20,894 nt of DNA from a virus. Below the pieces are notes generated by a model. It saw nothing but the letters and a program-made list of their open reading frames with translations, had not been told where the DNA came from and did no database searches. Positions 3,533 to 18,920 of the stretch are shown piece after piece. Where the stretch lies: positions 1 to 20,894 of the IMG/VR virus record IMGVR_UViG_3300030012_003827; one strand, given 5' to 3'. How positions within the stretch are numbered: the first letter of the stretch is position 1; each line of letters starts with the position of its first letter. The translations under genes were made by a program, and so were the position numbers.

Positions 3533-3745
3533 ATGATGGACGAACACAGCGGTCAAGGCGGAACCTACCTTCTTGACCCTGAAACAGGCGTACGCACTTT
3601 GATTTCGCGGACGCAATCACCACAAACATCAAAGGAAGCATCCGATGGCACTGCTACTCCGCAAACGCCTCGTTCTGATAGAGACGGAGTCAACTTACGG
3701 GACCGATCCAACTCCAACAGGAGCAGACGCAGTTCTAGTAAGTGA
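3533..3745 (+). CDS. Small overlapping ORF between tail terminator and tail tube
   Basis: This is a 70-residue frame with two adjacent ATGs (3533 and 3536). The N-terminal part (DEHSGQGGTYLLDPETG, then RTLISRT) has the look of short phage proteins with a GG-Y-x-x-D-P-x-T-G core found before tail tube genes. The last 33 codons overlap the tail tube gene in another frame and read as a Ser/Arg/Asn-rich tail, which is what an overlapped frame would impose. The ORF fills an otherwise empty gap between 3489 and 3645. Its N-terminal part is probably real; the out-of-frame tail of about 100 bases is odd. Function is unknown. Confidence 0.5.
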   Translation: MMDEHSGQGGTYLLDPETGVRTLISRTQSPQTSKEASDGTATPQTPRSDRDGVNLRDRSNSNRSRRSSSK

Positions 3746-4583
3746 TCTGAGCATCACGCCACAGAGTAGTGATGTTGTTAGTCGTGATTTGATTCGTCCT
3801 TATTTGGGCGCATCACCTCAGCTGCTTGCTAACACTCGTGTTGAATGCACCTTTAGTGTTGAGCTGGCTGGCTCTGGAACGGCTGGGACTGCACCTCAAT
3901 ACGGCAAAGCATTAAAGGCCTGTGGCTTGGCAGAAACCATTGTTGCTGGCACTTCAGTCACCTATGACCCTGTTAGTTCTGGGTTTGAATCCGTCACCAT
4001 TCACTACAACATTGATGGTGTGCGTCACAAGATGACTGGCTGTAGGGGAACTGTGGCGATTAGTGCCTCAGTTGGAGAAATCCCAACTCTGGACTTTTCT
4101 TTTACTGGCATCTACAACGCCCCTGATGACAGTGCTTTGCCGACACCAACCTATGCGAACCAAGCAGACCCTCTGCTCTTCAAGAACGGGAACACCACCA
4201 GTTTTCAGTTGCTTTCTTATGCAGGCAATTTGCAGAACTTCTCGTTTGAACTTGGAAATGAAATCATCTATCGCGAGTTGATTGGTGCAGGCAAAGAGGT
4301 TCTGATTACTAATCGTGAGGTGACTGGTTCAGTCTCGATTGAGGCAGTGTTAATGGCGACGAAAGATTATTTCGCTTCAGCTGTTGATGATGATGCGGCG
4401 CTTGGCAACTTGCAATTCACTCACGGCACTGCTGCAGGAAACATTGTCCAATTCACTTCTAGCAAAGTGGATATTGGTGATGTTTCGTACGGAGATTCAG
4501 ATGGCATTGCGATGCTGGAGATTCCCTACACTTGCGTTCCTGACTCGGCTGCCAACGCTGAGTTTGATCTGATTTACACCTGA
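3645..4583 (+). CDS. Major tail tube protein
   Basis: The protein has 312 residues. The opening (RLVLIETESTYGTDPTPTG followed by AVLVSDLSITP) and the run of beta strands are typical of two-domain phage tail tube proteins (Phage_tube_2 type). The first tube domain spans about residues 25-170 (VECTFSVELAGSG, GCRGTVAISASVGEIPTLDF); the second spans about 180-312 (NLQNFSFELGNEI, REVTGSVSIEAVL). It would polymerise around the tape measure to make the non-contractile tube. AAGGAAG precedes the ATG. The preceding gene is the tail terminator candidate, and a strong terminator follows the stop, which fits a very abundant product. Confidence 0.85.
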   Translation: MALLLRKRLVLIETESTYGTDPTPTGADAVLVSDLSITPQSSDVVSRDLIRPYLGASPQLLANTRVECTFSVELAGSGTAGTAPQYGKALKACGLAETIVAGTSVTYDPVSSGFESVTIHYNIDGVRHKMTGCRGTVAISASVGEIPTLDFSFTGIYNAPDDSALPTPTYANQADPLLFKNGNTTSFQLLSYAGNLQNFSFELGNEIIYRELIGAGKEVLITNREVTGSVSIEAVLMATKDYFASAVDDDAALGNLQFTHGTAAGNIVQFTSSKVDIGDVSYGDSDGIAMLEIPYTCVPDSAANAEFDLIYT

Positions 4584-4663: not shown

Positions 4664-4996
4664 ATGGCTTTTGTTCGCAAGAAAGTAAAAACCTTCAAAT
4701 GGCCTGTTGAAGTAAAAGAACCCAGTGATAGCAAGCCTGGTGAGTTTGAAACTTCAGAGTTCACTGCAGTATTCAAGCGAGTCAAGATGTCTGAGTTGAA
4801 AAAACTAGATGATGAGCAGGGCGTTGAATTGCTTAAAAAGGTAATGGTCGGTTGGGAAGGTGTCACAGATGAAGCTGGAAAGGAAGTTAAATTTAGTCTT
4901 TCTGAACTTGTAGATTTTGCGGACGATATTGATTGGTTGAAAGCAGTTTTAGCTGCTTACACCAAAACATATGCAGAGGCAGAGTCGGGAAACTAA
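4664..4996 (+). CDS. Tail assembly chaperone, short form (lambda gpG-like)
   Basis: The protein has 110 residues. It starts MAFVRKKVKTFKWPVEVKEP, has a beta-rich N-terminal part (ETSEFTAVFKRV) and a helical C-terminal part (SELVDFADDIDWLKAVLAAYTKTYAEA). This size, the position between tail tube and tape measure, and the frameshift signal at its end define the G-type chaperones, which coat the tape measure before tube assembly. The stop TAA (4994-4996) follows the slippery heptamer directly. There is no clear Shine-Dalgarno; an ATG-TAA start-stop pair overlaps the first base of its ATG. Confidence 0.8.
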   Translation: MAFVRKKVKTFKWPVEVKEPSDSKPGEFETSEFTAVFKRVKMSELKKLDDEQGVELLKKVMVGWEGVTDEAGKEVKFSLSELVDFADDIDWLKAVLAAYTKTYAEAESGN

Positions 4997-5340
4997 GAGA
5001 GGCGGCTATTTATTGGGTATCAGGGGGGAAAGTCGTTGAAGACAAAACTTATGACGATGCTGCTGCCTTTGGATTAAGCCTGCCTAATCGCACAAAAAAG
5101 AAGAAAGAAGATTTTGAGGTTTGGGATGAAAACTGGGAGACAGTCATGATGTTCATGCGCATGCAAACCCAGTGGACTGTCAGTATGGCTGGATACGTTG
5201 GGTTGAAATATGAGGTTCTCCTGGTTTCCGGGGGGCTTTTTGACCTTTATGATGTGGAGAACCGCCGTGAGGTGCTGGAGGGTCTTCAAATTATGGAGTC
5301 TGCAGCGCTAAGCGAATTGCACAAGAAGGAAAATGGCTAA
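4664..5340 (+). CDS. Tail assembly chaperone, -1 frameshift product (lambda gpGT-like)
   Basis: The frame after 4993 has no credible start of its own yet encodes a well-formed protein (LREAAIYWVSGGKVVEDKTY, then helical segments with ENWETVMMFMRMQTQW and REVLEGLQIMESAALSELHKK). Reading the first frame to AAC (4991-4993) and shifting back one base continues as CTA AGA GAG, giving a fusion of about 225 residues (join 4664-4993, 4993-5340). In lambda, the T part of gpGT recruits tail tube subunits to the tape measure. The stop overlaps the tape measure start by eight bases. The direction of shift and the heptamer match the lambda case, which makes this very likely. Confidence 0.85.
4987..4993 (+). 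promoter_or_regulatory. Programmed -1 frameshift slippery site GGGAAAC
   Basis: The phase is TCG-GGA-AAC-TAA, that is G GGA AAC, a canonical X XXY YYZ heptamer and one base different from the lambda site GGGAAAG. The zero-frame stop is the next codon. AGAGG at 4975-4979 lies seven bases upstream and could act as a Shine-Dalgarno-like stimulator. I see no compact stem-loop just downstream. Confidence 0.85.
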
Positions 5341-8300
5341 GACTGTTGGCGAACTTCTTGTTCAGCTAGAGGTTGAGGGTATTGAGGGCGTTAAGGCATT
5401 AAAGAGTTCACTGCGCGGGCTTTCAAACGCTTCTAATGCAAGTGACAAGCAGTTAGAGCAGCTTGCAAAAGGTGTAAAAAAATTTGGGGGCGAGGGGAAA
5501 AGAAGCAGGGAGGTTATTGCTGGGCAAGTTGATGCATTAAAAAAGCTACGAACACAGGCAAATTTAGGCGGCGAGGCTTTTGAAAGCCTTACCAAAGATG
5601 TTATCAATTATGAGAGAAAGCTTGCTGCAGCTGACCTCCAAATAGACAAAACAACAGCAAAATTCAAAACATTTGCTCAAGTTGCAAATCAAATTCCAGC
5701 CAGAAGGCCAGATGCATTTGCTGGGCAAATTGGCAAATTAAATAAGGATCTTGGAGATTTATCGGTAACTAGCGATAAGTATTTGAATCTTCTTCGTCAA
5801 ATACAGGAAAGGAGCCAAGCTTTTTCTAGGGCTCAAGCTCGTCAAGCTGTTATAGGCAGGGCTCAAACAGCAGCGACAGGAGTAATTGATCCGAGAGTTG
5901 GTCAAATTGTAGTCAACAGAGAGCTACCAAATACAACGGCGGCATTGTCGTTAAGAATATCAGAGCTAAAGGAAAATCTTCAAAACTTAGATTTCACAAG
6001 TAATGAATATAGAGATACGCAAAGGGAAGTCCTTGCCATTGAAAAGCAGCTTACAGATATAGGCAAGCAACGTGTTGAGGCCATTAAAGGAGTAACAGCT
6101 CAACAACGTCGAGCAGAACAGCTAGCTGAGAGATCTAGGGGTCGCAAGCAACGCTTAATTGCAGGTCAAACTGCCACAAACGCTGAGTTTAATGCTGCAT
6201 TAGGTGCGCACATGGCTGCACCTGCCATGCCTGTGCAGAGGCTAAGTGATTTGTATCAATCAATTGGTCAAATCTCTGCTGCTGCTATGGCAAGAGATGT
6301 TGAGATGATGGGTAATAGTTATAGGAAAGTTGCGGCAGATATCAATATGGCTGCAAGAGCTGGGAATGGCAATATTTCCAGTCTCCAGAATCAAAGAGCA
6401 TCTTTTGTAAGGCTACGCAACGTTCTGGACCCGCTCAGCAAAGACTTCAGAGAGGTCACTAGGGAGATAGAAAAGTTAGATACGCGCTTAAGGAAGCTAG
6501 ATCGCAAACCTCGCATGGGAGGTGCGCAGATTGCTCAAGGAGCTGGTGCTATCGCTAGTGCTGGAATATTTGGTGGTGTTGAAGGACTGATTGGTTCTGC
6601 TGCTGGCTTTGCCCTAGGAGGCCCTCTTGGTGCTGTTGTTGGTGGTGGTATTGGAGCACAAGCAAACCAAATTAGAAAACAGCTAGGAGCGCTGGCAGAA
6701 TACACAACTCAGTTAAATCTTTCCAAGCAAACGCTTGCATTGGCTGCTAACGGACAGGAAGAATATAACAAGCTACTAGCGATTAGCAGGGAAATAAGTA
6801 ATGATTACGCGCTTGGCCTCAAAGAGACTATTGGTGGGTTCGCGCAGATTGCAGTTGCCGCCAGAGCTAATAATTTAAGCCTAGAAGAAACAGAGACTAT
6901 TTACAGAGGACTTGTCTCTTCTGGTGTTGCTTTTGGTAAAAGTCAGGAGGACATAAATGCAATTGTAAGGGCAACAGTTCAGGTCCTAAGTAAGGGTAAG
7001 CTGAGTGCAGAAGAGCTTTCAGGACAACTCGGCGAGCGCATGCCGGGTGCCGTAGCCAAGTTTGCCGAGGCAACAGGACGAACGCTCCCTGAACTTGCTG
7101 CTGCTCTTAAGGCAGGAGAAGTTTCAATCGATGATTTTGTAGATTTTTCGAAAAAGCAACTATTTGACTACGACAAAGTTGCAAAACTGATTGGAGATTC
7201 CCCAGAAAAAGCTGGCGCACGTTTAAAGCTGGCACTCGACGAGGCAGTAGAAAATTACGGTGGTTTCTTCCAAAGAGCAGGCGCAGGATTCCAGGATCTG
7301 TTCAAGAAAATAATTGATTTTGTTAACGACAACAAAACAGCAATTAGAAATATGGTAATTGATTTTATTATTCAAGCAGAAAAAATTAAAGAAGTATTTG
7401 CGGGGTTAGGCAGAGACATCGTCAATACCTTGGCTCCGCCGCTTAAGTTTGTAGTTGATATGTTTGGGCGAGGTGTTGACGCAATACATGGAGCAGTGAT
7501 GAGAGAGCGTGATCTTATGGCTGGAGGCTTTAACGCAGAGCAAGCCTTAAATAGAGCTGAAAGCGCTGCTCAAAACGTTACTCCAAATTTGAGTGTTGGC
7601 GGCTTTGAGATTCCAAATACTCAAAGGTTGCATCCAAGCTTCACAGGTAATGTTCAAGAAGCGTATAGAGTAGAACAGCAAAGTGCTTTAATTGCAGGAA
7701 GAAAGCTTCGAGAAGAAGCAGGAGGCAGCGTTGATTTTGATGCAATGAGGGAAGAGCTAGAAAAAATATTTGATTTCGAGGTTTTCAAGTATGGTGAATT
7801 TAAGTCAGGTCAAGGTAGTGGAGACTTAACTACACCACCAGGTGGAGCTGGTGGCGCTGGCATGAAAGATATAACCAAAGAACTTGCTGACGCAAAAATA
7901 GCAAGAATCAATCTAGATAAAGACGCGATAATTGGAGTCAGAGAGCAGATCGAGCTCGAGGCAGATTTGTCAAGAAAGGCTGCACAACAGTTACCAACGC
8001 AAAAGCAAAGAGTTGAGCTTGCAGAAATCAACAAAAGAGAGACTGAACAGTTAGCTGCTCTTGAAGAGCGTATTAAAGAGTCTGGCAAGGCAATGGCTGA
8101 AAAGTTGATAGAAAGAATGAATGCATCCCAGTCGTTAAATCGCAATCTTCAGGATTCTCTTGCAAAGCGCAAGCTAGAACTCGGCCTGATAACACAAGAA
8201 GAATTCAACCAGCTCGAAATTGCAAGAGAGCGTCAACGCCTTGAGGCATTACGTGACCCTGATAAAGGAGGCATCACAGATTCTCAAATAGAAGAGCAGA

Positions 8301-9046
8301 TGGATATGTTCAAAAAGGTATTGAACCAAACGCCTATCGATAAATTCATTAAGAGTGCCAAAGACAGCTTAAATGATCTACACACAGTTGCAGTGAATAT
8401 CTCGCAAGGCATCGGCAATGCAGTTGGCAATGCAATGACAAGCGGCATTATGGGGTTAATAGAAGGCACCAAGACAGCGAAGGAAGTATTCGCTGATTTC
8501 TTGAAGAGTGTTGGTCGGATCTTGGCGCAAGAAGGCGCAAAGATGATTGCCACTTACATTGCTATTGGTGTAGCAAAAATATTTGCTGGGTTGGGTAGCG
8601 CTACAGCCGGAGGAGGTTCTAGTGTCGAAACAATAACGTCTAAATACGGTTCTTTTGGCGCAGAGGGGGCTGCAAAAGCTGCTGGATCCTTGCCTCCCTT
8701 GCCTAAAGCAAACGGTGGTCCAGTAGAAGCTGGTCGTCCTTACATGGTTGGAGAGCGTGGACCTGAGATGTTTATCCCAGGTTCAAACGGTGGAATTATG
8801 CGTAATGAGGACATGCGGCGCATGATGGGACGGTCTCCTGCAGGCGCTGGTGTACATCAGATGAATTTTACGTTTGAGACTACTAATATTGGTGGAACAG
8901 AGTTTGTGAGCCGTGAGCAGCTTGAGCAGGCAATGGTTGTTACTCGTCGTCAAGCAACCAATGATGGTGCAAAAAGAGGTATGAGCATGACGTTAGATAA
9001 AATGCAGAACAGCCCACGCACTCGATCCAGAGTAGGTATTAGCTAA
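5333..9046 (+). CDS. Tape measure protein
   Basis: The protein has 1237 residues. It acts as the ruler and scaffold for the tail and is expected to enter the host envelope at DNA ejection. The N-terminal third is helical and charged, fitting coiled coil. Residues about 393-446 are a Gly/Ala-rich hydrophobic stretch (GAIASAGIFGG, AGFALGGPLGAVVGGGIGA). Residues about 462-700 match the tape measure N-terminal domain, with LALAANGQEEYNKLL, SLEETETIYRGLVSSG, LSAEELSGQLGERMPGAV and FDYDKVAKLI. Near 1021-1087 is a lambda gpH-like C-terminal part (ISQGIGNAVGNAMTSGIMGL, FADFLKSVGRILAQEGAKMI). Near 1127-1146 is the usual GGPVEAGRPYMVGERGPEMF. At about 0.15 nm per residue the tail would be near 185 nm (inference). 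GAAGGAAA precedes the start. Confidence 0.93.
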   Translation: MAKTVGELLVQLEVEGIEGVKALKSSLRGLSNASNASDKQLEQLAKGVKKFGGEGKRSREVIAGQVDALKKLRTQANLGGEAFESLTKDVINYERKLAAADLQIDKTTAKFKTFAQVANQIPARRPDAFAGQIGKLNKDLGDLSVTSDKYLNLLRQIQERSQAFSRAQARQAVIGRAQTAATGVIDPRVGQIVVNRELPNTTAALSLRISELKENLQNLDFTSNEYRDTQREVLAIEKQLTDIGKQRVEAIKGVTAQQRRAEQLAERSRGRKQRLIAGQTATNAEFNAALGAHMAAPAMPVQRLSDLYQSIGQISAAAMARDVEMMGNSYRKVAADINMAARAGNGNISSLQNQRASFVRLRNVLDPLSKDFREVTREIEKLDTRLRKLDRKPRMGGAQIAQGAGAIASAGIFGGVEGLIGSAAGFALGGPLGAVVGGGIGAQANQIRKQLGALAEYTTQLNLSKQTLALAANGQEEYNKLLAISREISNDYALGLKETIGGFAQIAVAARANNLSLEETETIYRGLVSSGVAFGKSQEDINAIVRATVQVLSKGKLSAEELSGQLGERMPGAVAKFAEATGRTLPELAAALKAGEVSIDDFVDFSKKQLFDYDKVAKLIGDSPEKAGARLKLALDEAVENYGGFFQRAGAGFQDLFKKIIDFVNDNKTAIRNMVIDFIIQAEKIKEVFAGLGRDIVNTLAPPLKFVVDMFGRGVDAIHGAVMRERDLMAGGFNAEQALNRAESAAQNVTPNLSVGGFEIPNTQRLHPSFTGNVQEAYRVEQQSALIAGRKLREEAGGSVDFDAMREELEKIFDFEVFKYGEFKSGQGSGDLTTPPGGAGGAGMKDITKELADAKIARINLDKDAIIGVREQIELEADLSRKAAQQLPTQKQRVELAEINKRETEQLAALEERIKESGKAMAEKLIERMNASQSLNRNLQDSLAKRKLELGLITQEEFNQLEIARERQRLEALRDPDKGGITDSQIEEQMDMFKKVLNQTPIDKFIKSAKDSLNDLHTVAVNISQGIGNAVGNAMTSGIMGLIEGTKTAKEVFADFLKSVGRILAQEGAKMIATYIAIGVAKIFAGLGSATAGGGSSVETITSKYGSFGAEGAAKAAGSLPPLPKANGGPVEAGRPYMVGERGPEMFIPGSNGGIMRNEDMRRMMGRSPAGAGVHQMNFTFETTNIGGTEFVSREQLEQAMVVTRRQATNDGAKRGMSMTLDKMQNSPRTRSRVGIS

Positions 9047-9462
9047 TGGCTACAGCAAGTTTCCCTGACATGAAGCCAACATCCCGTCGATTTAGGATGG
9101 GTGACATTCCAAGCACTACATATACATCTTTATCTGGTGCTGTATTTAGACGCGCTTACGGCAACAAGAAGACTGGCTATACGCTGGATCTTACGTTTGA
9201 AAATATTTCAGATGTTGTGGAGTTGAAAGCTGACTCTGGAACTACTCTTGAAATTTTGAATCATTACGAATCAGTCAATGGAACTTTTAAAAGTTTTACT
9301 TTAACGAACAAAACATTTGCAGGCATGGGGGCTTCAGTTAGAGGGCACATCCAAGCACCAAGTAATGTCAAGTGGAGATACGCCAGCCCACCTGAAGTTA
9401 GAGCGGTATATAGGGATATAAGCACTGTAACTGTAAAACTTCTTGGGGAAATTGAAGCATGA
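9046..9462 (+). CDS. Minor tail protein (lambda gpM position)
   Basis: The protein has 138 residues. It begins FPDMKPTSRRFRMGDIPSTTY, has a central beta part (YGNKKTGYTLDLTFENISD) and ends with WRYASPPEVRAVYRDISTVTVKL. The 'Y G N K ... L x L x F x N I' and 'V x W R Y x x P P E V' patterns are typical of short minor tail proteins encoded after the tape measure. It overlaps the tape measure stop by one base (TAATG) and the next gene by four (ATGA). It probably links tape measure or tube to the tip complex. The exact family is not certain. Confidence 0.6.
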   Translation: MATASFPDMKPTSRRFRMGDIPSTTYTSLSGAVFRRAYGNKKTGYTLDLTFENISDVVELKADSGTTLEILNHYESVNGTFKSFTLTNKTFAGMGASVRGHIQAPSNVKWRYASPPEVRAVYRDISTVTVKLLGEIEA

Positions 9463-9905
9463 GCAGTGTAATTCGCATAATGCAGGCATTTGCATTAGTT
9501 GATGCAAAGGGCAATAGTCATACTTATCAAAACTATTTCGTCAACCTTCCAGATTTTGCGCCTTTCCAAGTAGACGGCAGTGTATCAACTCTCGGTGGCG
9601 ACAATTCTCAGATTAAAGTGTTATTTCCTGCAACTAAATATGCAATTCGCCTTGTGGAAAAGGGAGACGGTAACAGAAAAAGTCAGCTTACACTTACAAC
9701 TAATTTCATAACAGAAAGTGAACAACTTGGAGCTTTAATTTCTCAAGAGATTTACGTAGGTATTGGCGCAAGTTTTAGTGAAAGCACTGTTGAATTACGT
9801 TTTAACACTGCAGTCGATGCAGTCGCTTCTAATTTTCCAGCGCAGAGGTTGAATGAAGAAAACGTTGGCATTTTGCCTCTGGATTCCGCTTTGTCATTGC
9901 GATGA
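9459..9905 (+). CDS. Minor tail protein (lambda gpL position)
   Basis: The protein has 148 residues, all beta in appearance, with ATKYAIRLVEKGDGNRKSQL, a helix around SEQLGALISQEI, and a closing GILPLDSALSLR. The short leucine-serine-arginine end is common in tail-tip proteins at this position. There is no Cys-rich C-terminal segment of the kind expected for the iron-sulfur domain of lambda gpL, so only the position and the size agree. GGGGAA lies upstream of its ATG, and its stop overlaps the next ATG (ATGA). Confidence 0.55.
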   Translation: MSSVIRIMQAFALVDAKGNSHTYQNYFVNLPDFAPFQVDGSVSTLGGDNSQIKVLFPATKYAIRLVEKGDGNRKSQLTLTTNFITESEQLGALISQEIYVGIGASFSESTVELRFNTAVDAVASNFPAQRLNEENVGILPLDSALSLR

Positions 9906-10276
9906 ATGACCTTATTGGTCTGCAGTATCAGTGGGGTGCGTCTTTTGCTGATGGCAGTGGCTACACAGACTGCTTCCAGCTCGTATGCGAAATTCGCAAG
10001 CGCTTAGGCCTGAGTGATTACTCTAAGAAGTTTGAGTGGGCTTACGACTCCTACACCCAAGAAACATTCAAACCAATTCGTCTTGCGAAGTGGTTACTTC
10101 AGACCGGAAGACGACTTACACTGCCGGAGCATGGAGCGGTAGCTTTGCTGGCTGATCCAACAAGCCCAGCTTTAGGTAGCGTTGTTGATGGCAGTGTCAT
10201 CTTGATTGCGCCTGGCAAACGTGTTATTCGCATTCCACTGCCGCGTGTGTCTGCTTACTACTTCTGGATTGACTGA
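9902..10276 (+). CDS. NlpC/P60-like tail-tip protein (lambda gpK position), probably inactive
   Basis: The protein has 124 residues. The start (LIGLQYQWGASFADGSGYTDCFQLVCEIRKRLGL) fits the NlpC/P60 pattern, with the nucleophile at Cys24 in TDCF. The second half (GAVALLADP, then LGSVVDGSVILIAPGKRVIRIPL) aligns by eye with the family strand pair that normally carries the catalytic His as H-x-G, but here the position is Ala90 before LG. The only His (77) is in LPEHGAV, before the usual GD-V strand. Family enzymes cut peptidoglycan during tail entry; this one may be structural only. It is shorter than lambda gpK. It overlaps both neighbours (ATGA and TGATG). Confidence 0.7.
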   Translation: MNDLIGLQYQWGASFADGSGYTDCFQLVCEIRKRLGLSDYSKKFEWAYDSYTQETFKPIRLAKWLLQTGRRLTLPEHGAVALLADPTSPALGSVVDGSVILIAPGKRVIRIPLPRVSAYYFWID

Positions 10277-13200
10277 TGCGTAAGCTTCTTCCCTACGAGC
10301 ACCAGCTAATCGAAGCGCTAGGTGTGACAAAAGAAGAGTACCTAAATTTTGTTGCGATACAGCAGGACTATAAAGATCCAAAGGTTGGCACAGCGCTTGA
10401 TGTTAGGGCTCAAGATCCTGGCACTATTGCTCTTGTACTGACAATTGTGGGCACCTTATTTCAGGTTGGTGCAGCACTTCTCGCTCCTAAGCCTGAAATT
10501 CCTGATGGAGGAAGAAGGAAAAATAGACAGCAAAGATTTGCACCAAGCTTTGGTTTTAACAGCGCACAGGATCTTGCTAAATACGGAGACCCTGTAAATC
10601 TTATTTACACTAACAACAATGATAATCCTCTTGGCAGTGTAAGAGCAAATGGTTCTTTAGTTTGGTCTCAGATTGAGAATTTCGGCTCCTCTCAGTTCAT
10701 GCAGCTTATGCTTGTCATTGGAGCATCAAAGCTTAAGAGAGTTGACTTTGACTCAATTGCGTTTGGTCAAAAAGACTTATCGAATTTTGACAAAGGTAGC
10801 TTTTATGTTTTTTCAAAGCTTAATGGCGAACCTGGAGTTCCAAAGTTTAATGAATTAAGGGCTGGGCATGAAAAAAACACATTCTTTCCTGAGCGCCTTA
10901 CCCCAGATGATGGTGCAGACAAGCGACCTGCGTGTCTAATTGCCTTTCATGGCGATAAAAAAGAGGGATTCAGCCAGGCATATACGCCAACAGCATCAAC
11001 CAGTCTTGGAGTGTTTGATGTCGTTCCAATTAATGTAAATGTATTAACTAGAGACTCAGATGGCGACGAGGAAGAGTCAAACATTTTAATAAAACTAAGC
11101 AGCTTTGGGCAGGACGGTACATGGAAAAATAATGCCAATGGTGGGATCTTTCAGGTAAACGATCAAATTGAATTGGTATTCACAAAAACCAGTGGAAAAA
11201 AATCTGAGATAATTCAGCAAGACGAGGATCCAGGGGAAACCGCAATTGATATGCGCCGTCAAATGGTTGAGTCGTTAGATTTTAGTAGCACTTACATGCT
11301 TGGTTCTGCAAAGTTTAGATTTGAAACTTACGGCGGCAACGGGAATAGAAACATTGAGAATGGAGACGTAGAAGTTCGTTTTAAATGCATTGAATCAGGA
11401 GCAGCCCCAGCCAGTTTATACAATACAACTGAGCCAAAACAAGATGACAAGAAATTGAAGAGAGAAATCGAGAATGCAATTCATATTCTCGAAAATAATC
11501 CAAAACCAGAGAAATTAATTCCAGATGTAGACAATCACCCATTAAGCGATGAAGGCAACTTTACAGACCCTTTTGCTGTAACCAGTCCTGCCAACCCCTT
11601 CATTAATATCAAATACAATGACAAAGAAACTGTTTCATGGACTCCAAAACTTAACCTTGTAGATGACGATGGAAAAAAAATTGAAGGTGGTGAACTTGAG
11701 CTAGCTTCAAAGAGTCAAAGAATTGATCGGGCTGGATCAATTGCTTACTCAAAAGAGCTAAAGATAGACTTGCAAGAAGATGTTTTAATTGATGTTAGCA
11801 AGGTAAGGAAGACATTTAGGAAGCGAAAAAAAGCACTTAAAAAACTAATCGAGGCGATAAACAATTGCGATTATGATGGTCAAGATTTAGTCCATGGCAA
11901 CAATGGCTACTTAGAAGGACTCAATCCTTTGGGTGGAGAGGCAAGTGGCCAAGCACTATTTCATAGCAATAGAACTATTGACAATAATGTTACTGGAAAT
12001 GGTTATACTGTTAAGTACGATGCATATAATAAAAAAATAATGGGAAATCGCGGGGACGGAGGCAGAGGAGAGTTTGGTGGCGTTTGGTATACATTCATAT
12101 ACATTGACCGAAACAGGAACTGGCATTATTTTAATTTTAATGGAGTATTCAATAACGATGAAGAAGCCGACATATTTCCCGAAGATCCAAAAATGATAAA
12201 AAGACGAGAAAAAGTTGAAAACAAAAAAGAAGACATTAAAAATGCAGAGGTAAGAAAAAATGACTTAGAAAAACAAAAAACAAAGATCAAAAGTGATGCT
12301 ATTGCCTCAAACTCTCCTAGCGACAAGCAAGGGATATTGAATGCAGACACGCAACTTTTGGAAAGTGTCTACGACGACATCAAGGCTTTTAATGTTGAGC
12401 TAACAAAACGTCAGAATAAACTCAACAACCGCATAATAAGAAATTTTGGCATCATGCATCAGCTAGCAATTGATGTAATCGATGACGACATTGAATATAT
12501 CGATACTATTTTGGAACAACTGCCCAGCGTCGACCAAAAAGACAAGGAGGGAGCAAAAGCACTGAGGACGGCGATGAATAAAATAATCAATGAAAAACGC
12601 TCTGACTTAAAAGAATTTAAAAAGATTTATGAAGACTGGAACGAATACAGGAAAAGTTTTGACAATACGTTTTTCTCGAAATGCTTGGTGAAAGCGGAAA
12701 AAGCCTCATACGAGACACTAAGTGAAATTGATACTATTAACTTTTCACTAAAAGTAAAACTTTTTAGGCGAATATCGGGACGGCAAAAAAAATACGGCGA
12801 GAAAAAAATTAAGAAATATAGCTCGTCTGACAATGGCGTGAAAAGCCGTATGGTATTTTTCCGAATGTACTACAAAAAGCAAGGAGAGGTTGATTTCGCG
12901 CCTGTTGGAATTGTTTTTGCAGTCAGACGAGGCAGTGAATCTGACTTTTACACGCAAATTAGATTTAAAGGATCAAACGGAACAGAGCAGCAGCCACGTA
13001 GCAAGTGGTCTTTTGAGTTTCGACCTGTTTACGATCCTAGTTCGGAATTTAAATCTGGCCGTACGTTTACTCAATACGCTTTTCTTGAAGACACTAGTGA
13101 AGAGCCTAAGATATTTGATATCGATAGCCAAATTAAAGTGTCTTGGTCTGGCAGATATGTCAATGCCAGCGAATTGATTGGGTATTTCCCGGATGAGGAC

Positions 13201-14592
13201 GAAAGAGGGCCCGTTGACACTAACGAGTGGGACATGTTCTCAGTCAACTCTGACACCAATATTCAATTTAGCCACGAAGGAGGTCCTGAGATCACGTTGA
13301 CTGCCGTAACAGAACAGCAGTTTGCACGAAATAATTTTATTCTTGATAAGTATAGTGATTTGACAATGATGGCTGTTGGTGTTTACGCCAATCGCGGATT
13401 ACAAGATTTACGCAGCGTGAGCGCTTTAGTCAGAAAGGGCAAGAACTGCAAAAAAATCAATGTTTCCAACAAGACAATATCAGACAACGTAAATTCTTCA
13501 AGTTTTGCGCCAGATATATTTGTAGATACATTGTTAGATGACATTAACGGCGTAGGCAACTATGTAAATGAGTCAAACATTGATATTGACAGTCTTGCTT
13601 TGGCTAAGAAGTTTTGTACAAACAATAATCTACCAAGGCAGGAGAGCGGTGCAGATAAAGTTACTATGTTTATGGATGGGATTATTGCTGATGCGGGATC
13701 ATGGCGGGAATTTTGGATTAATGCAGCACCTTTCAGCCTGCTTGAGTTGGCACGAAAGAATGGCAAGGACACGCTCGTCCCTGCGCTTCCAGTGAATAAA
13801 AGTGGCAAGGCTTGTCTTGACGACGGGACGCCGATAGAAGTCGAGGTGTCGGCACTTTTCACTAGTGGCAACATCCTTGAAGGCTCTTATAAAGAAGAAT
13901 TTTTAAGTTATGGGGCAAACACCGAGGATCTAATTGCATCTGTTGTCTACAGAGAGTTTAGAGAGCAGGAAGTCTTTAACAAAAATAGAACCGTAGACGT
14001 AAGGCTCAAGGGTGTTGACGACAGAGCTGTTAGGGAGACCTTTGACTTAAGTCAGTTTGTTACGCAACGAGAGCAAGCAATAATGTTTGCAAAACTGTTG
14101 TGCAATCAACGCAGACAGGTAAGAAAAGGTATTGAGTTCAAAACATTGCCTTCAGAGGCAGGTTTAGAGCCTGGTTCTTTTATCTATGTAGATGTTGGTC
14201 TAAAAACTTGGGATAAGTACTCCTCTGGAATTGTGATGGAAAACGGTGAATTAAATTCACCGTTGAACGATCATCAAGATGTTGGGACTGCAAACTTTAA
14301 TTTCTTGCTATACCAGCCTTTGACCGGAGAAGTAGAAAGCAAAGCTTCTGTCTCTGTCACAACCTCTTCAGGCAAGTTAAGCACAGCCTCTAGCCTGACG
14401 GATTACAAAGGCTGGATGTTTGTTATGGGCAACGAAAAGCCAAACAAACGAGTTTTCAGGGTTACTGAACTTGAAATTGAGGGGGACGGCGAGCTGAGCG
14501 TTAAAGCAGTTGAGTACCCTTGTTTTGAGTCAAGCGGAAAAATACGAGCAGAAATAGCTGACTTTCGTAGCGACAAGTTTGAGGTAAGCTAA
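10276..14592 (+). CDS. Tip attachment / central tail-tip protein, lambda gpJ-like
   Basis: The protein has 1438 residues. Residues about 50-72 form a hydrophobic helix (GTIALVLTIVGTLFQVGAALLA). Residues about 88-190 carry the hub-like segment of cyanobacterial J-type proteins (FGFNSAQDLAKYGDPVNLIY, SLVWSQIENFGSSQFMQLML). Residues about 640-850 are Lys/Glu/Asp-rich and coiled-coil-like. Residues about 1214-1279 fit a Phage-tail_3-type module (DLIASVVYREFREQEVF, LSQFVTQREQAIMFAKLLCN), followed by a beta-rich end (YKGWMFVMGNEKPNKRVFRV, AVEYPCFESSGKI). It would form the tail tip and touch the receptor or anchor fibres. The middle is visibly A-rich compared with the head genes. It overlaps the NlpC-like gene by one base (TGATG). 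Confidence 0.85.
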   Translation: MRKLLPYEHQLIEALGVTKEEYLNFVAIQQDYKDPKVGTALDVRAQDPGTIALVLTIVGTLFQVGAALLAPKPEIPDGGRRKNRQQRFAPSFGFNSAQDLAKYGDPVNLIYTNNNDNPLGSVRANGSLVWSQIENFGSSQFMQLMLVIGASKLKRVDFDSIAFGQKDLSNFDKGSFYVFSKLNGEPGVPKFNELRAGHEKNTFFPERLTPDDGADKRPACLIAFHGDKKEGFSQAYTPTASTSLGVFDVVPINVNVLTRDSDGDEEESNILIKLSSFGQDGTWKNNANGGIFQVNDQIELVFTKTSGKKSEIIQQDEDPGETAIDMRRQMVESLDFSSTYMLGSAKFRFETYGGNGNRNIENGDVEVRFKCIESGAAPASLYNTTEPKQDDKKLKREIENAIHILENNPKPEKLIPDVDNHPLSDEGNFTDPFAVTSPANPFINIKYNDKETVSWTPKLNLVDDDGKKIEGGELELASKSQRIDRAGSIAYSKELKIDLQEDVLIDVSKVRKTFRKRKKALKKLIEAINNCDYDGQDLVHGNNGYLEGLNPLGGEASGQALFHSNRTIDNNVTGNGYTVKYDAYNKKIMGNRGDGGRGEFGGVWYTFIYIDRNRNWHYFNFNGVFNNDEEADIFPEDPKMIKRREKVENKKEDIKNAEVRKNDLEKQKTKIKSDAIASNSPSDKQGILNADTQLLESVYDDIKAFNVELTKRQNKLNNRIIRNFGIMHQLAIDVIDDDIEYIDTILEQLPSVDQKDKEGAKALRTAMNKIINEKRSDLKEFKKIYEDWNEYRKSFDNTFFSKCLVKAEKASYETLSEIDTINFSLKVKLFRRISGRQKKYGEKKIKKYSSSDNGVKSRMVFFRMYYKKQGEVDFAPVGIVFAVRRGSESDFYTQIRFKGSNGTEQQPRSKWSFEFRPVYDPSSEFKSGRTFTQYAFLEDTSEEPKIFDIDSQIKVSWSGRYVNASELIGYFPDEDERGPVDTNEWDMFSVNSDTNIQFSHEGGPEITLTAVTEQQFARNNFILDKYSDLTMMAVGVYANRGLQDLRSVSALVRKGKNCKKINVSNKTISDNVNSSSFAPDIFVDTLLDDINGVGNYVNESNIDIDSLALAKKFCTNNNLPRQESGADKVTMFMDGIIADAGSWREFWINAAPFSLLELARKNGKDTLVPALPVNKSGKACLDDGTPIEVEVSALFTSGNILEGSYKEEFLSYGANTEDLIASVVYREFREQEVFNKNRTVDVRLKGVDDRAVRETFDLSQFVTQREQAIMFAKLLCNQRRQVRKGIEFKTLPSEAGLEPGSFIYVDVGLKTWDKYSSGIVMENGELNSPLNDHQDVGTANFNFLLYQPLTGEVESKASVSVTTSSGKLSTASSLTDYKGWMFVMGNEKPNKRVFRVTELEIEGDGELSVKAVEYPCFESSGKIRAEIADFRSDKFEVS
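14242..14264. repeat. 23-bp inverted repeat with perfect 10-bp arms inside the tip gene
   Basis: AACGGTGAAT, spacer TAA and ATTCACCGTT are perfectly complementary. The repeat codes for NGELNSPL near the C-terminal end of the tip protein. No T-run follows. It could be a protein binding site or an RNA hairpin. Confidence 0.5.
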
Positions 14593-14619: not shown

Positions 14620-15051
14620 ATGGGATTTTTCACTGGCCGCACTGGCTCAGTTGTTTTCAACGGCAAGCCTGTAGCAAAAATTCGGGACTGGTCTCTTGAA
14701 ACAACAGTAGAGCTGATCAGCACTAACACTATTGATAGTGGCGTCAATACATTCGTACCAGGCTCTAAAGGAGCAACGGGTAGTGCGACATTACTGTATT
14801 ACAAGCTGGAATCTGGAGAAAGTACATCATTGACTGAATTCACGGCCTTGCTGGCAAAAATAATGAAAACCAGCGTCATCACTACAAGTGACAGAGTCTC
14901 TCTTGAGCTAAACGTAGGTGGAGGCAGTGCCGACGATATTAAATTTAACGCTTACATTACTTCCGCCAGCGTATCTGTTAGCACTGGCGAGTTAAGTGTA
15001 GTCCCTATTAATTTTACAGTTGACGGTGAATTTACTGAAGTAATCAGCTAA
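14620..15051 (+). CDS. Tail-tube-like structural protein downstream of the tip gene
   Basis: The protein has 143 residues and is beta-rich. It reads FFTGRTGSVVFNGKPVAKIRDWSLETT, then ELISTNTIDSG, then GSATLLYY, then an acidic loop and DIKFNAYITSASVSVSTGEL. This is the strand order of single-domain tail tube proteins: VxxIxxW, a threonine-rich strand, GxxGSA and an AYITSxSxSxxxGE-type pair. A second tube-like subunit after the J gene might form tail decorations, a tip collar or a fibre adaptor. A 27-base gap precedes it with no clear Shine-Dalgarno. It overlaps the next gene by one base (TAATG). Confidence 0.65.
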   Translation: MGFFTGRTGSVVFNGKPVAKIRDWSLETTVELISTNTIDSGVNTFVPGSKGATGSATLLYYKLESGESTSLTEFTALLAKIMKTSVITTSDRVSLELNVGGGSADDIKFNAYITSASVSVSTGELSVVPINFTVDGEFTEVIS

Positions 15052-15926
15052 TGGCTTTTTACCTCGGCAAACACGGTAACGTTCGCCTGCGTCGAGGCAC
15101 TGATGTTTTTATCGGCAGCGTTGAGGCGTCTATTGGCCCTGACGACGTGAATACTAATTTAGAGCGTTTGGGGGTTGACAACGCTACTGATAATTTATTT
15201 ACTGGCGATCGTGTCGATATCTCGACAGAAGATAGTCGTGGGATAGCTTTTGTGCCGGCATCTAATTGGAGCAGTGGAGTCATTGAAGATGCGTTCAGTG
15301 CCTATATAAATGTAAACGAGGCAGGGGGCTTGCGTTTTTTCAATACTTTTCAAGACTCAATAAATAACACAAGAGCCAATGAAATTGATTTGCAAGCGTT
15401 TGCGGGGGAACCGATAATAGTTAAATTTACAGTCAGGGATACTCGTTTCAATATTGTCGGAAACATTTCAAGCTACGAGTTTAATACTTCGCGTGATTCC
15501 GTCGACCTTACAACTCTGTCTGACAAGTATAAACAACAGCATAGCGCAGGACTTATTAGTGGAAGCGGTCGAATTGAATGCGCTTTTGATTATGCAACGG
15601 GAACTGCTATTGAAGCACCAATGATCATGTTGCAAATTATTCAGCGTCTTGACCTTGGATGTGCCTTTGATATTGCTTTGTACCTTACGGATAAAGAGGT
15701 TGTTGCTACTCAACCGAATATTTTTTATCAAACTACCGCTGTTACGACTTCTACTGGAATAACGGTGGAAGCAGGTGGCTTGGTGTCATGCACCATTGAT
15801 TTTGTCACAACAAAAGAAATCAAGCTAATTATTGGCAAGCCTTCTGAGTACATCCTTAAGGAGGATGACGATCGAATCAAGGTTGAGCAGGGGTTGGACT
15901 TCCTTCTTCAGGAAGTAACGGACTAA
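15051..15926 (+). CDS. Conserved phage structural protein with a C-terminal tail-tube-like domain
   Basis: The protein has 291 residues. The N-terminal half starts MAFYLGKHGNVRLRRGTDVFI and contains NLFTGDRVDISTEDSRG and INVNEAGGLRFFNTF. From about residue 129 (VRDTRFNIVGNISSYEFNTS, then TLSDKYKQQHSAGLISGSGRI) the layout repeats the tube-like pattern of the preceding gene. The end is acidic (EDDDRIKVEQGLDFLLQEVTD). I know this type as a protein found near tip and fibre genes of cyanobacterial phages, without an assigned role. Position suggests a fibre base or tip component. Coupled to the preceding gene by TAATG. Confidence 0.65.
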   Translation: MAFYLGKHGNVRLRRGTDVFIGSVEASIGPDDVNTNLERLGVDNATDNLFTGDRVDISTEDSRGIAFVPASNWSSGVIEDAFSAYINVNEAGGLRFFNTFQDSINNTRANEIDLQAFAGEPIIVKFTVRDTRFNIVGNISSYEFNTSRDSVDLTTLSDKYKQQHSAGLISGSGRIECAFDYATGTAIEAPMIMLQIIQRLDLGCAFDIALYLTDKEVVATQPNIFYQTTAVTTSTGITVEAGGLVSCTIDFVTTKEIKLIIGKPSEYILKEDDDRIKVEQGLDFLLQEVTD

Positions 15927-15962
15927 ACTGGGACCAAATGTTCCTGTCAACGGAGTAAGGCC

Positions 15963-18920
15963 TTGGCTGACCAAAGGATTACGCAACTCACAGAGTTGTC
16001 CAAGGCTGGCGTTGCAGCTTCTGATGTCTTAGCTATCGCTGATATCAGCGGTTCAGAAACCAAAAAGGTTACCGTCAAAAACCTGGTAGAAGGTGCTTTA
16101 GACCTAATAGATTCAGACTCTATTCCTCTAAGCAAGCTGAATCAAGCCAGTGCTTCCAAGATTGGCAGTACTGCTGTCGCAGACGATGCAATAACTTATG
16201 CAAAGATTCAAGATGTCACGGCAACAGATCGGTTGCTCGGTCGAAGCACGGCAAATGCAGGTCCTATCGAGGAAATCATTTGTACAGCAGCAGGTCGAGC
16301 GTTGCTTGATGATGCCGATACAGCTGCTCAACGTACAACGCTTGGCATTGATACAAACGACAGCGTAACCTTTGGAACAGTCACTGCAAACTTAAATTCT
16401 TCTAGTGCCGCAATTAGTGGCGGCACAATTACAGGCATCACGGATATAACGATTGCAGACGGTGGAACGGGAGCTTCTACTGCAGCTGCTGCACGTCAAA
16501 ATCTTGGTGTTGAGATTGGAGCAGATGTTCAGGCTTATGACGCTGGCTTGCAAAGCATTTCAGGTCTTACCACTGCAGCCAACCAGAGTATTTATCTAAC
16601 AGGTACAGATACATATGCTGCTTATTCATTGACAGCCGCAGGTCGTGCATTGCTAGACGATGCGGACGCTGCTGCACAAAGAACAACGCTTGGCTTAGGA
16701 ACACTTGCAACGCAAAGTGGCACTTTCAGTGGCACTCATTCTGGAACGACTAGCGGCATTAACACAGGTGATCAAACAATCACGCTCACTGGTGCTGTAA
16801 CAGGTACAGGAACTGGATCGTTTACGACTTCAATTGCAGCAGGAGTTATTGGCACTTCGCAGCTTGCTAGCGATTCTGTTACTTATGACAAGATTCAAGA
16901 TACAACTACTACAGACGTAATCCTTGGTCGCAGCACGTCTGGAGGTGGAACAGTTGAACAAATTGCATGTACTGCTGCAGGTCGTGCATTGCTAGATGAC
17001 GCTAATGCAACAGCGCAACGCACAACTTTAGGCCTAGGTGATCTTGCTACTGCTGATGGGACTTGGACTGATGGGTCTTCTTTCTCTGGCACGAGTTCAG
17101 GTACTAATACGGGTGATCAAACTATTACATTAACTGGCGCTGTAACAGGAACTGGGACTGGATCTTTTGCAACGACACTAGCCACTAATATTGTGGCTGC
17201 TTCAAATATTCAGTCAAGCGCAGTAACGACAGCAAAGCTCAATAACTCAGCTGTTAGCCAAGACAAATTGGGAGACCAATCGACTTGTGTCGTAAGCACA
17301 GCTTCTCCTTCTGGAACTGGTGCTTACGTTGGACAAGCTTGGTACAACACAGGATCTAGCCTTGCTTATCGCTGGACTGGCTCAGCTTGGGTACAAGAAG
17401 CTGGAATTCAGTCAGTCACAGTTACTGAATCAACCCCTTTATCGATTGCAGTAAATAATCCTGATAATTTTACAGCAAATATAACGCTAACACTTGATAC
17501 ACAGGCTGCAAATGCTGTATTTGTCGGCCCTGCTTCTGGATCAGATGCAGCACCAACATTTAGGGCACTCTTGCCTGCTGATTTACCTGATGCAACCTCT
17601 TCAGCAAAGGGAATTGTCCAGCCAGGATCTGGTTTGGCAGTGTCAAGCGGAACGCTAAACATAAACAATACAGTCACTGCCGCAACAAAGAGCGGTATTT
17701 CATTTAGCGCACAAGGTTTAATAACAGGTGCGGTTGATCTTGTCGCCTCAGACATACCTAGCCTTGATGCATCAAAAATCAGCACTGGCTCCTTCAGCAG
17801 TGATTTTATTAGCGCAGGAGCTGTAACCGCTAACAAGCTCGCAAACAAATCAACAGCATCAATTGGTGAAACTTTGCCAATCGCTGCATTTACAGGACAG
17901 CTTCATTTTAACCCGTTAGACAAAAATTTCTTTCTATGGGATGGAAACGTTTGGCAGTCAATTGGTATCTCAGCAGGCGCAATTATTCTTGCTGGTACTT
18001 ATGACGCAAGCACAAATCAAGTTGCTTCTGTTACTAATGATGGATCTGCTATTGGATTAAGTGTTGGAAACGCTCTGCCTTCTCCAAGCAGCAGTAACAG
18101 CAATTATTACCTAGTAGTTTCTGAGCCAGGCACTGGAACGTCACCCGCTCCAACTGTTGCTCTTGCCCCGCCTGATTTGCTGTTGTCTACAGGTACTGCA
18201 TGGCTTGAAATTGACGTTAGCAGCACTTATACAGCACAAACGGCTAATAACGTTGCTTTTAGCCCTGCTGCAAACCTTGGTTCTACTAACGTTCAATCTG
18301 CGTTAGAGGAAGTTAGCAATGAGTGCCGCGATGTAGACAACATGACAGGCGGTACGCTTGATGTTGCGAGAGGCGGTACAAATATTGCTTCTTATGCAAA
18401 GGGCGATTTAATTGCTGCTAGTGCATCAACCACTTTAAACAAGCTAACGGTTGGTACAAACGGCTACATCCTCAGTGCAAATAGCAGCACAACAACTGGT
18501 CTTGAGTGGATTGCTAATCAAGTTGGAACGGTTACTGGCGTCACTGTTACTGCGCCATTAGGTGTTACTAATGGCACTACAACTCCAGCGCTAACAGTCA
18601 GCACCGGCACTACAAGTGCAGTTGGTGTATTACAGCTTACGGATGGAGTTGCCTCTTCTAGTACTACAACCGCTGCAACACCAAACGGCGTAAAAACCGC
18701 TTATGACCTTGCCGCATTGGCAATGCCTAAGGCAGGAGGCATTTTTAGCGGTCAAGTGATGATTGGCAATACTGGTTCTCTAGTGTTTGAAGGACCAACG
18801 GATGACGCATTTGAAACTACCCTTTCTCCAGCTGATCCCACTGCTGATAGAACGATCACACTGCCCAATAACAGCGGAACAGTTGCCTTGACTAGTCAGC
18901 TAGATGACGGGACATTCTGA
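15963..18920 (+). CDS. Tail fibre protein with internal repeats (TTG start)
   Basis: The protein has 985 residues and is rich in Thr, Ser, Ala and Gly. The TTG start gives MADQRITQLTELSKAGVAASD, a conserved opening of such fibres, and GGAG lies seven bases before it; there is no in-frame ATG between the upstream stop and this point. Residues 1-60 are the probable attachment part (SETKKVTVKNLVEG). Residues about 109-400 hold about 115-residue repeats (AAGRALLDDAD..QRTTLG; NTGDQTITLTGAVTGTGTG). Two W-rich motifs follow (YRWTGSAWVQ, FLWDGNVWQ). The C-terminal part has VARGGTNIASYAKGD and ends ADRTITLPNNSGTVAL, a usual fibre ending. It should be a trimeric fibre for host binding. Confidence 0.85.
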   Translation: MADQRITQLTELSKAGVAASDVLAIADISGSETKKVTVKNLVEGALDLIDSDSIPLSKLNQASASKIGSTAVADDAITYAKIQDVTATDRLLGRSTANAGPIEEIICTAAGRALLDDADTAAQRTTLGIDTNDSVTFGTVTANLNSSSAAISGGTITGITDITIADGGTGASTAAAARQNLGVEIGADVQAYDAGLQSISGLTTAANQSIYLTGTDTYAAYSLTAAGRALLDDADAAAQRTTLGLGTLATQSGTFSGTHSGTTSGINTGDQTITLTGAVTGTGTGSFTTSIAAGVIGTSQLASDSVTYDKIQDTTTTDVILGRSTSGGGTVEQIACTAAGRALLDDANATAQRTTLGLGDLATADGTWTDGSSFSGTSSGTNTGDQTITLTGAVTGTGTGSFATTLATNIVAASNIQSSAVTTAKLNNSAVSQDKLGDQSTCVVSTASPSGTGAYVGQAWYNTGSSLAYRWTGSAWVQEAGIQSVTVTESTPLSIAVNNPDNFTANITLTLDTQAANAVFVGPASGSDAAPTFRALLPADLPDATSSAKGIVQPGSGLAVSSGTLNINNTVTAATKSGISFSAQGLITGAVDLVASDIPSLDASKISTGSFSSDFISAGAVTANKLANKSTASIGETLPIAAFTGQLHFNPLDKNFFLWDGNVWQSIGISAGAIILAGTYDASTNQVASVTNDGSAIGLSVGNALPSPSSSNSNYYLVVSEPGTGTSPAPTVALAPPDLLLSTGTAWLEIDVSSTYTAQTANNVAFSPAANLGSTNVQSALEEVSNECRDVDNMTGGTLDVARGGTNIASYAKGDLIAASASTTLNKLTVGTNGYILSANSSTTTGLEWIANQVGTVTGVTVTAPLGVTNGTTTPALTVSTGTTSAVGVLQLTDGVASSSTTTAATPNGVKTAYDLAALAMPKAGGIFSGQVMIGNTGSLVFEGPTDDAFETTLSPADPTADRTITLPNNSGTVALTSQLDDGTF
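16287..16346 (+). repeat. Fibre repeat copy 1 (AAGRALLDDADTAAQRTTLG)
   Basis: First of three coding repeats in the fibre gene. The next copies start 348 and 687 bases later. The preceding LLGRST...EEIICT segment is repeated before copy 3 as ILGRST...EQIACT. Confidence 0.85.
16635..16694 (+). repeat. Fibre repeat copy 2 (AAGRALLDDADAAAQRTTLG)
   Basis: Second copy. Protein identity to copy 1 is 19 of 20 residues, with many synonymous differences in the DNA, so the repeat is kept at protein level. Confidence 0.85.
16761..16823 (+). repeat. Fibre glycine/threonine repeat, copy A
   Basis: Encodes NTGDQTITLTGAVTGTGTG followed by SF. An identical protein segment occurs at 17106-17168 with synonymous DNA changes. 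Confidence 0.85.
16974..17033 (+). repeat. Fibre repeat copy 3 (AAGRALLDDANATAQRTTLG)
   Basis: Third copy, 339 bases after copy 2, with changes only in the middle of the unit. Confidence 0.85.
17106..17168 (+). repeat. Fibre glycine/threonine repeat, copy B
   Basis: Identical in protein to copy A and 345 bases after it, confirming a tandem module of about 115 residues. Confidence 0.85.

Follow-up and report, generated by a model that had tools for sequence, protein, structure and literature searches.

Two tail-tube-related proteins encoded between the tail hub and the fibre gene of an uncultured phage: a candidate side-fibre attachment unit

The fixing of side fibres to non-contractile tails has been solved in few phages, and the locus considered here raises the matter in a particular form: what might be the function of two tube-like proteins encoded after the tail hub and next to a fibre gene, in a tail module that has a separate tube gene of its own? 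The window (i.e. the whole stretch of DNA analysed, a virus record of 20,894 bases) contains a siphophage tail module, in which the 143-residue protein and the 291-residue protein of interest are referred to throughout as A and B, respectively. The relevant features are as follows.

3645..4583, + strand: canonical tail tube protein of the window (Pfam PF18906, Phage_tube_2, 1.1e-26)
4664-4996: chaperone-like ORF, between the tube gene and the tape measure
5333-9046: tape measure, from gene order
9046..9462, + strand: minor tail protein, phrog_15525 (PHROGs), probably Dit/gpM-like, a label given from position
9459-9905 and 9902-10276: two ORFs between the minor tail protein and the J-like hub
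10276..14592, + strand: J-like tail hub/tip protein, 1438 aa, 5' of A (PHROGs "tail protein", 2.5e-7)
14620..15051, + strand: A, predicted single-domain tail-tube-fold protein, 143 aa (PHROGs, AlphaFold2, Foldseek)
15049..15053, + strand: TAATG overlap of the A stop and the B start, with one base in common (sequence)
15051..15926, + strand: B, 291 aa, predicted tail-tube fold interrupted by an inserted domain and followed by a C-terminal tail (profiles, model, alignment)
15963..18920, + strand: fibre protein (Pfam Phage_fiber_2, 1.9e-9; PHROGs tail fiber, 9.6e-22)

The original prediction was right as to the coordinates and lengths of the two reading frames, and both lie directly 3' of the 1438-residue J-like one, while the fibre genes start at 15963, after B. 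The labels gpM/Dit, gpL, gpK, J and tape measure are presumptive, being taken from gene order and general knowledge, and go beyond the names supplied by PHROGs and Pfam.

The relationship between A and B was originally proposed by eye, from three motifs said to be common to A and to the C-terminal half of B. In a literal motif scan all three are found in A, but B contains V..I..[WY] alone, T...[LI]..T and G..[SG]S[GA] being absent from it. The score of a single-sequence local alignment of A with B was matched by 240 of 2000 shuffles and is thus at chance level, while the best BLASTP segment has an E value of 0.17; neither the literal motif nor the direct pairwise comparison being significant, both were dropped as proof of homology. 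Profile searches, run over every ORF of 80 codons or more in 138 loci and the window (handles such as L007 denote individual loci), gave a different picture. The A profile HMM matches true tube genes (1e-16 to 2e-8, with the L069 tube at 6e-3) and also, with a best E of 2.9e-6, the C-terminal regions of B, and the B profile matches the same tube genes at 2e-8 to 4e-5 (MED4-184/MED4-117 at 1.6e-3), through B residues ~126-260 and in some cases also, separately, through the first residues of B. Using hhalign, A aligns over its full length with B from which the insert described below has been removed (E 5.9e-6) and less strongly with full-length B (2e-3), and the values against canonical tubes are 3.6e-15 for A and 7.5e-11 for B, as compared with 0.13-0.77 for controls in which column-shuffled A was aligned with full-length B and with the canonical-tube profile. 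Judged from such profile comparisons the relationship of A to B is real, even though the alignment by eye would on its own be at chance level. What did not survive of the proposal is the phrase "C-terminal half", as the first strand of the shared domain corresponds to B residues 1-16. Neither A nor B shows any sequence similarity to the window's own tube protein (3645-4583), whether by profile or by pairwise comparison.

Kinship with major tail proteins emerges from several directions. In PHROGs, A matches phrog_10528 (2.2e-5) and phrog_1407 (4.2e-5), both of which are named "major tail protein"; 33 of 34 members of the A family match phrog_10528, and 19 of 42 members of the B family match phrog_1407 (best 4.9e-6). 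Pfam tube families are matched weakly, with best E values of 0.0019 for A (2 of 34 members) and 0.0037 for B (21 of 42), and an NCBIfam search returned nothing for either protein. At L007, L092, L025, L036 and L068 the canonical tube gene, lying just 5' of the tape measure, is itself homologous to A, as is that of L012, which also precedes the tape measure and is cut by the contig end; A-like genes occupy this position at L008, L069, L083 and L086 as well. The tube gene was typed at 18 loci, giving 10 of A type (L007, L008, L012, L025, L036, L068, L069, L083, L086, L092), 6 of PF18906 type (L005, L081, L095, L097, L099, L104) and 2 of neither (L119, and L016, in which tblastn finds a cut PF18906-type piece); the number of independent loci is lower than 18 because L005/L081, L007/L086 and L025/L083 are overlapping pieces of one contig. 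Among named relatives S-H1 has an A-type tube gene (2e-7), and the divergent A of L115 matches proteins that carry the annotation major tail or tail tube protein in phages of Roseobacter, Sinorhizobium and Rhodobacter, the best being from phage DSL-LC06 (3e-9), with Sinorhizobium phage phi3LM21 also matched. PDB sequence searches with A and B as single sequences, and with A1, A2 and A4, yielded nothing relevant, while a profile combining A with canonical tubes found the major tail protein of R4C (8.7e-5). With this protein (PDB 8gtb) and the major tail proteins of Rhodobacter and Roseobacter phages, A and B have in common both the fold and a detectable sequence homology; the difference is that the R4C protein forms the tail tube, whereas the genes of A and B lie 3' of the hub gene, beside that of the fibre, and a separate tube gene is present.

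The predicted structures agree with this. Confidence is middling for both AlphaFold2 models (A, pLDDT 75.7 and pTM 0.67; B, pLDDT 72.9 and pTM 0.59). Foldseek yields 23 PDB matches for the A model with E<=1e-3, headed by lambda gpV (6e-5) and followed by the R4C tube (1e-4) and GTA. The VIA rows for A have Z values of 7-9 (maximum 9.0), with some unrelated proteins among them (a methyltransferase complex and a c-di-GMP protein), so that the assignment of its fold rests mainly on Foldseek and sequence. For B the situation is reversed: Foldseek with the whole model is weak (best E 4.2e-3), but the top VIA rows are nearly all tube or Hcp proteins, the R4C tube protein aligning with a Z of 12.1 and an rmsd of 2.8 over 111 residues. 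The structure prediction that had been suggested as a check thus gives folds that match solved tube proteins rather than unrelated ones. Both A and B are predicted to carry the tail-tube beta-sandwich, and taking sequence and models together they belong to the tail-tube superfamily by descent.

The alignment of B with R4C spans residues 5 to 263, yet covers 111 residues. This span and the alignment with tubes show that an insert of ~115 residues interrupts the single tube domain of B, the tube fold being modelled in two parts (residues 1-16 and about 132-263), as set out below.

15051..15098, + strand: first strand of the split tube domain, B residues 1-16 (VIA span; alignment with A and canonical tubes)
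15099..15443, + strand: inserted domain interrupting the first hairpin of the tube domain, B residues 17-131 (alignment)
15444..15848, + strand: remainder of the tube domain, B residues 132-266 (VIA, hhalign)
15849..15923, + strand: conserved C-terminal tail, B residues 267-291 (conservation; low-confidence in the model)

When searched by itself against family collections, the insert (17-131) has no family matches. The canonical tubes of L025, L036, L068 and L069 carry an insert of 97-106 residues at the same hairpin site; homology between these and the B insert is not established, hhalign giving an E of 0.033 against 0.053 for the control. The C-terminal consensus of the B family is EYILKEDDDRI..EQSLDFLLQE, and columns conserved at 90% or more make up 14 of 29 in residues 263-291, whereas the insert has 25 such columns out of 115 and residues 132-262 have 34 out of 131. 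In the model, residues 267-291 have pLDDT under 50; we propose that this tail may act as a docking peptide.

Neither protein is classed here as the tail tube itself, because both are encoded after the J-like hub rather than before the tape measure, and the window's tube gene is that at 3645-4583. Nor do they fall among Dit/gpM proteins, as the families they match are those of major tail proteins and not of Dit, and the slot directly after the tape measure is occupied by the phrog_15525 protein at 9046-9462.

The gene order around A and B was compared in loci picked up through their resemblance to A or to B (for A, the best 80 of 187). In the 132 records with A, the window included, the 5' neighbour is J in 112, a minor tail protein in 17 and cut off in 3; in the 129 records with B, a fibre homologue comes next in 114, the contig is cut in 13 and there is none in 2, so that a fibre homologue directly follows B in 114 of the 116 loci that can be judged, and 100 of these 114 match at the fibre N-terminus. 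Distances between the proteins were correlated over 42 nonredundant loci (from 77), giving r values of 0.82 for A with the fibre N-terminus, 0.68 for B with the fibre and 0.62 for A with B, against 0.43 for B with J, 0.19 for the fibre with J and 0.13 for A with J. When loci with the order J-M-A-B (M being the minor tail protein) are removed, leaving 36, A-fibre is 0.83 and A-J 0.44, and in the 18 loci retrieved with B the corresponding figures are 0.90 and 0.66. The segment of the fibre that co-varies with A and B comprises its N-terminal ~70-80 residues. The hub genes vary jointly (L-J 0.96 and M-J 0.78, 32 loci from 55), while A barely co-varies with J, L and M (r 0.10-0.27). The order J-M-A-B occurs in 13 of 96 loci, and in these J is 28-32% identical to that of the window, A 74-77% and the fibre N-terminus 66-70%. 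Likewise, A is 85-86% identical in L005, which has a PF18906-type tube, and in L007, which has an A-type tube. These comparisons show, at the level of sequence, that a cassette of A, B and the fibre N-terminus is inherited as one, largely without regard to which hub or which kind of tube accompanies it.

Some details of these loci may be recorded separately. The minor tail protein lies between J and A instead of after the tape measure at 13 loci in all, among them L068 (9597-9971), and in these loci J, L and the tape measure are very divergent. The tubes of L005 (324-1262), L007 (1519-1965) and the window (3645-4583) make up two families without sequence similarity to one another, and the C-terminal 400 residues of J are 61% identical to those of the window in both L005 and L007.

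Our preferred reading, to which we would assign a probability of about 0.58, is that A and B derive from major-tail-protein genes that were duplicated, diverged and now serve as a side-fibre attachment unit at the tail tip. A and B would each form a ring, or would be present as subunits docked on the tip; with one tube domain in each chain, six copies per ring would be expected. A would provide the ring or the contact to the tip, and B, through its insert and C-terminal tail, would hold the fibre of the adjacent gene by its N-terminal ~70 residues. That A and B are fibre-anchoring adaptors at the tip had been suggested at the outset, and the gene order and the co-variation with the fibre N-terminus favour such a role, inferred though it is. 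It must be remembered that the co-variation is evidence of linkage and no proof of contact, as the loci were retrieved with A or B and the genes concerned are neighbours; a shared recombination history of neighbours can produce it. Against this, J is the direct neighbour of A in most loci, yet it is the fibre that tracks A more closely.

The main rival is a tube ring like that of T5 p140: A and B would be extra rings between the last tube ring and the distal tail protein, starting or ending growth of the tube, with the fibres attached by other proteins. Such rings would resemble T5 p140 or T4 gp54, and a plain tube ring is conceivable for A since it retains the length of the ring-stacking loop; according to the T5 tail-tip study (PMC10038345), p140 is a paralogue of the tube protein in just that place, with the fibre collar around it. 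The two readings may even overlap, as on the same account the p140 ring itself bears the fibre collar (PMC10038345). However, a ring between tube and Dit should track both, whereas A has hardly any correlation with J, L and M and is almost unchanged in L005 and L007 under two tube kinds unrelated in sequence, and the genes are placed after the hub, beside the fibre; overall we regard extra rings as unlikely, if still a serious contender. It is improbable that A and B are assembly factors, i.e. chaperones of the fibre or tip that have a tube-like fold and do not remain in the mature virion: a position between hub and fibre would suit such a role, but their descent from structural tube proteins is clear and the fold is intact. 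We know of no fibre chaperone with a tube-like fold. Very doubtful, too, is the idea that A is an alternative or minor tube subunit co-polymerising with the main tube and B a decoration of the tube, with the fibre as a coincidental neighbour. A is indeed a bona fide member of the tube family, and the hairpin insert of B is at the same site as in the canonical tubes that have one, but co-polymerisation is unlikely because the canonical tubes of the window and of several relatives lack sequence similarity to A, and the linkage to the fibre is strong. Finally, a chance resemblance of beta-rich proteins, which the insignificant comparison of the single sequences might have allowed, is refuted by the agreement of profiles, intermediates and folds, the listed profile matches being tube genes and A or B themselves.

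Returning to the fibre-attachment reading, the re-use of the tube fold that it implies was originally called uncommon, which overstates the case: such re-use at tail tips is well known from T5 p140, Dit proteins, JBD30 gp49 and baseplate hubs. In the T5 study (PMC10038345), p140, the Dit protein pb9 and the hub protein pb3 are all built on the tube domain, and p140 and p132 form a tip collar carrying the L-shaped fibres. The likeness to what is proposed for A and B is that in p140 a paralogue of the tube protein serves a fibre-bearing collar at the tip (PMC10038345); the differences are that p140 has two tube domains and is a trimer, while A and B have one each, that of B being split by an insert, so that neither A nor B belongs to the p140 type, and that p132 is Ig-like and forms a dodecamer around p140, while the fold predicted for B outside its hairpin insert is that of a tube protein. 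In JBD30, gp49 (Dit) is described (PMC11445458) as a tube-fold tip protein helping fibre attachment, as is proposed for A and B; the difference is that the window has a separate Dit-like gene (9046-9462) besides A and B, whose matches are to major tail protein families. Two further phages provide examples, T1 gp37 having a TTP-like fold and the gpM-like Dit of LSH1 a tube fold in a published model. What appears to be new is a pair derived from tube proteins, one of them bearing an insert, that is encoded 3' of the hub and inherited along with the fibre; its post-hub location, kinship with major tail proteins, hairpin insert and link to the fibre together set this form apart from known tip re-use. 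No description of an A-B pair was found in open-access papers. Searches for relatives of B gave 145 pattern matches in a collection of bacterial and archaeal genomes, none of them a relative, and in a phage collection one chance-level match (E 1), or none with a divergent B as query.

In cultured relatives the place of A and B is taken by something else. The Synechococcus phages S-CBS1 (gp18/gp19; L139, 16762-17651) and S-LBS1 (A24/A26; L137, 16928-18361) and the Microcystis phage Mic1 (gp27/gp26; L138, 13029-14758, two of four such Mic1 proteins among those examined) have proteins with M-family domains, of the phrog_15525 type, directly after a J-like hub, as A and B are in the window. S-CBS1 has a tail-fibre gene (gp20) next, like the window, while the S-LBS1 annotation shows no fibre gene immediately 3' of A24/A26. 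These post-hub proteins match the M-family profile and not A or B, and among the proteins compared from the three phages none is a convincing A or B (best E 0.087 with the A profile, 0.14 with the B profile). Sequence searching found no solved structure for the M family, which we take to have the tube fold. Their presence suggests that the position of A and B can be filled by another duplicated tip protein, and the copying of ring proteins beside the fibre might therefore be a recurrent route to an adaptor, as the post-hub slot of these cultured relatives holds duplicated minor-tail (Dit-like) proteins. The cassette itself consists of one plain tube gene and one with a hairpin insert, both forms being found among the normal tubes of relatives. 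A broader proposal may be put forward tentatively, at rather less than even odds: that this is a portable fibre-docking cassette arising from duplicated tube genes and shuffled among phages with distant hubs and with tubes unrelated in sequence, such copying of ring proteins beside the fibre being recurrent. If a tube-derived cassette does move with the fibre, this would explain how phages that differ in tube and hub can exchange fibres, and the A-B cassette, being widespread in aquatic phages, would be a simple marker for fibre-docking genes in unannotated phage genomes.

As to the origin of the window, its canonical tube shares 57.8% identity with the S-CBS1 tube and 50.2% with the S-LBS1 one, a resemblance that makes a cyanobacterial host likely; the phage is uncultured and its hosts are probably aquatic cyanobacteria. 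In S-H1 (L134) two tandem genes annotated as hypothetical (15582-15998 and 16001-16423, 138 and 140 aa) are both homologues of A (7.7e-14 and 1.1e-16), lie 5' of a long gene in the tape-measure position, and constitute a second case of a duplicated tube gene. At the other end of the window, the ORF at 3-2102 (699 residues, open at its 5' end) looks, from its sequence, like a fusion of a prohead protease with a major capsid protein.
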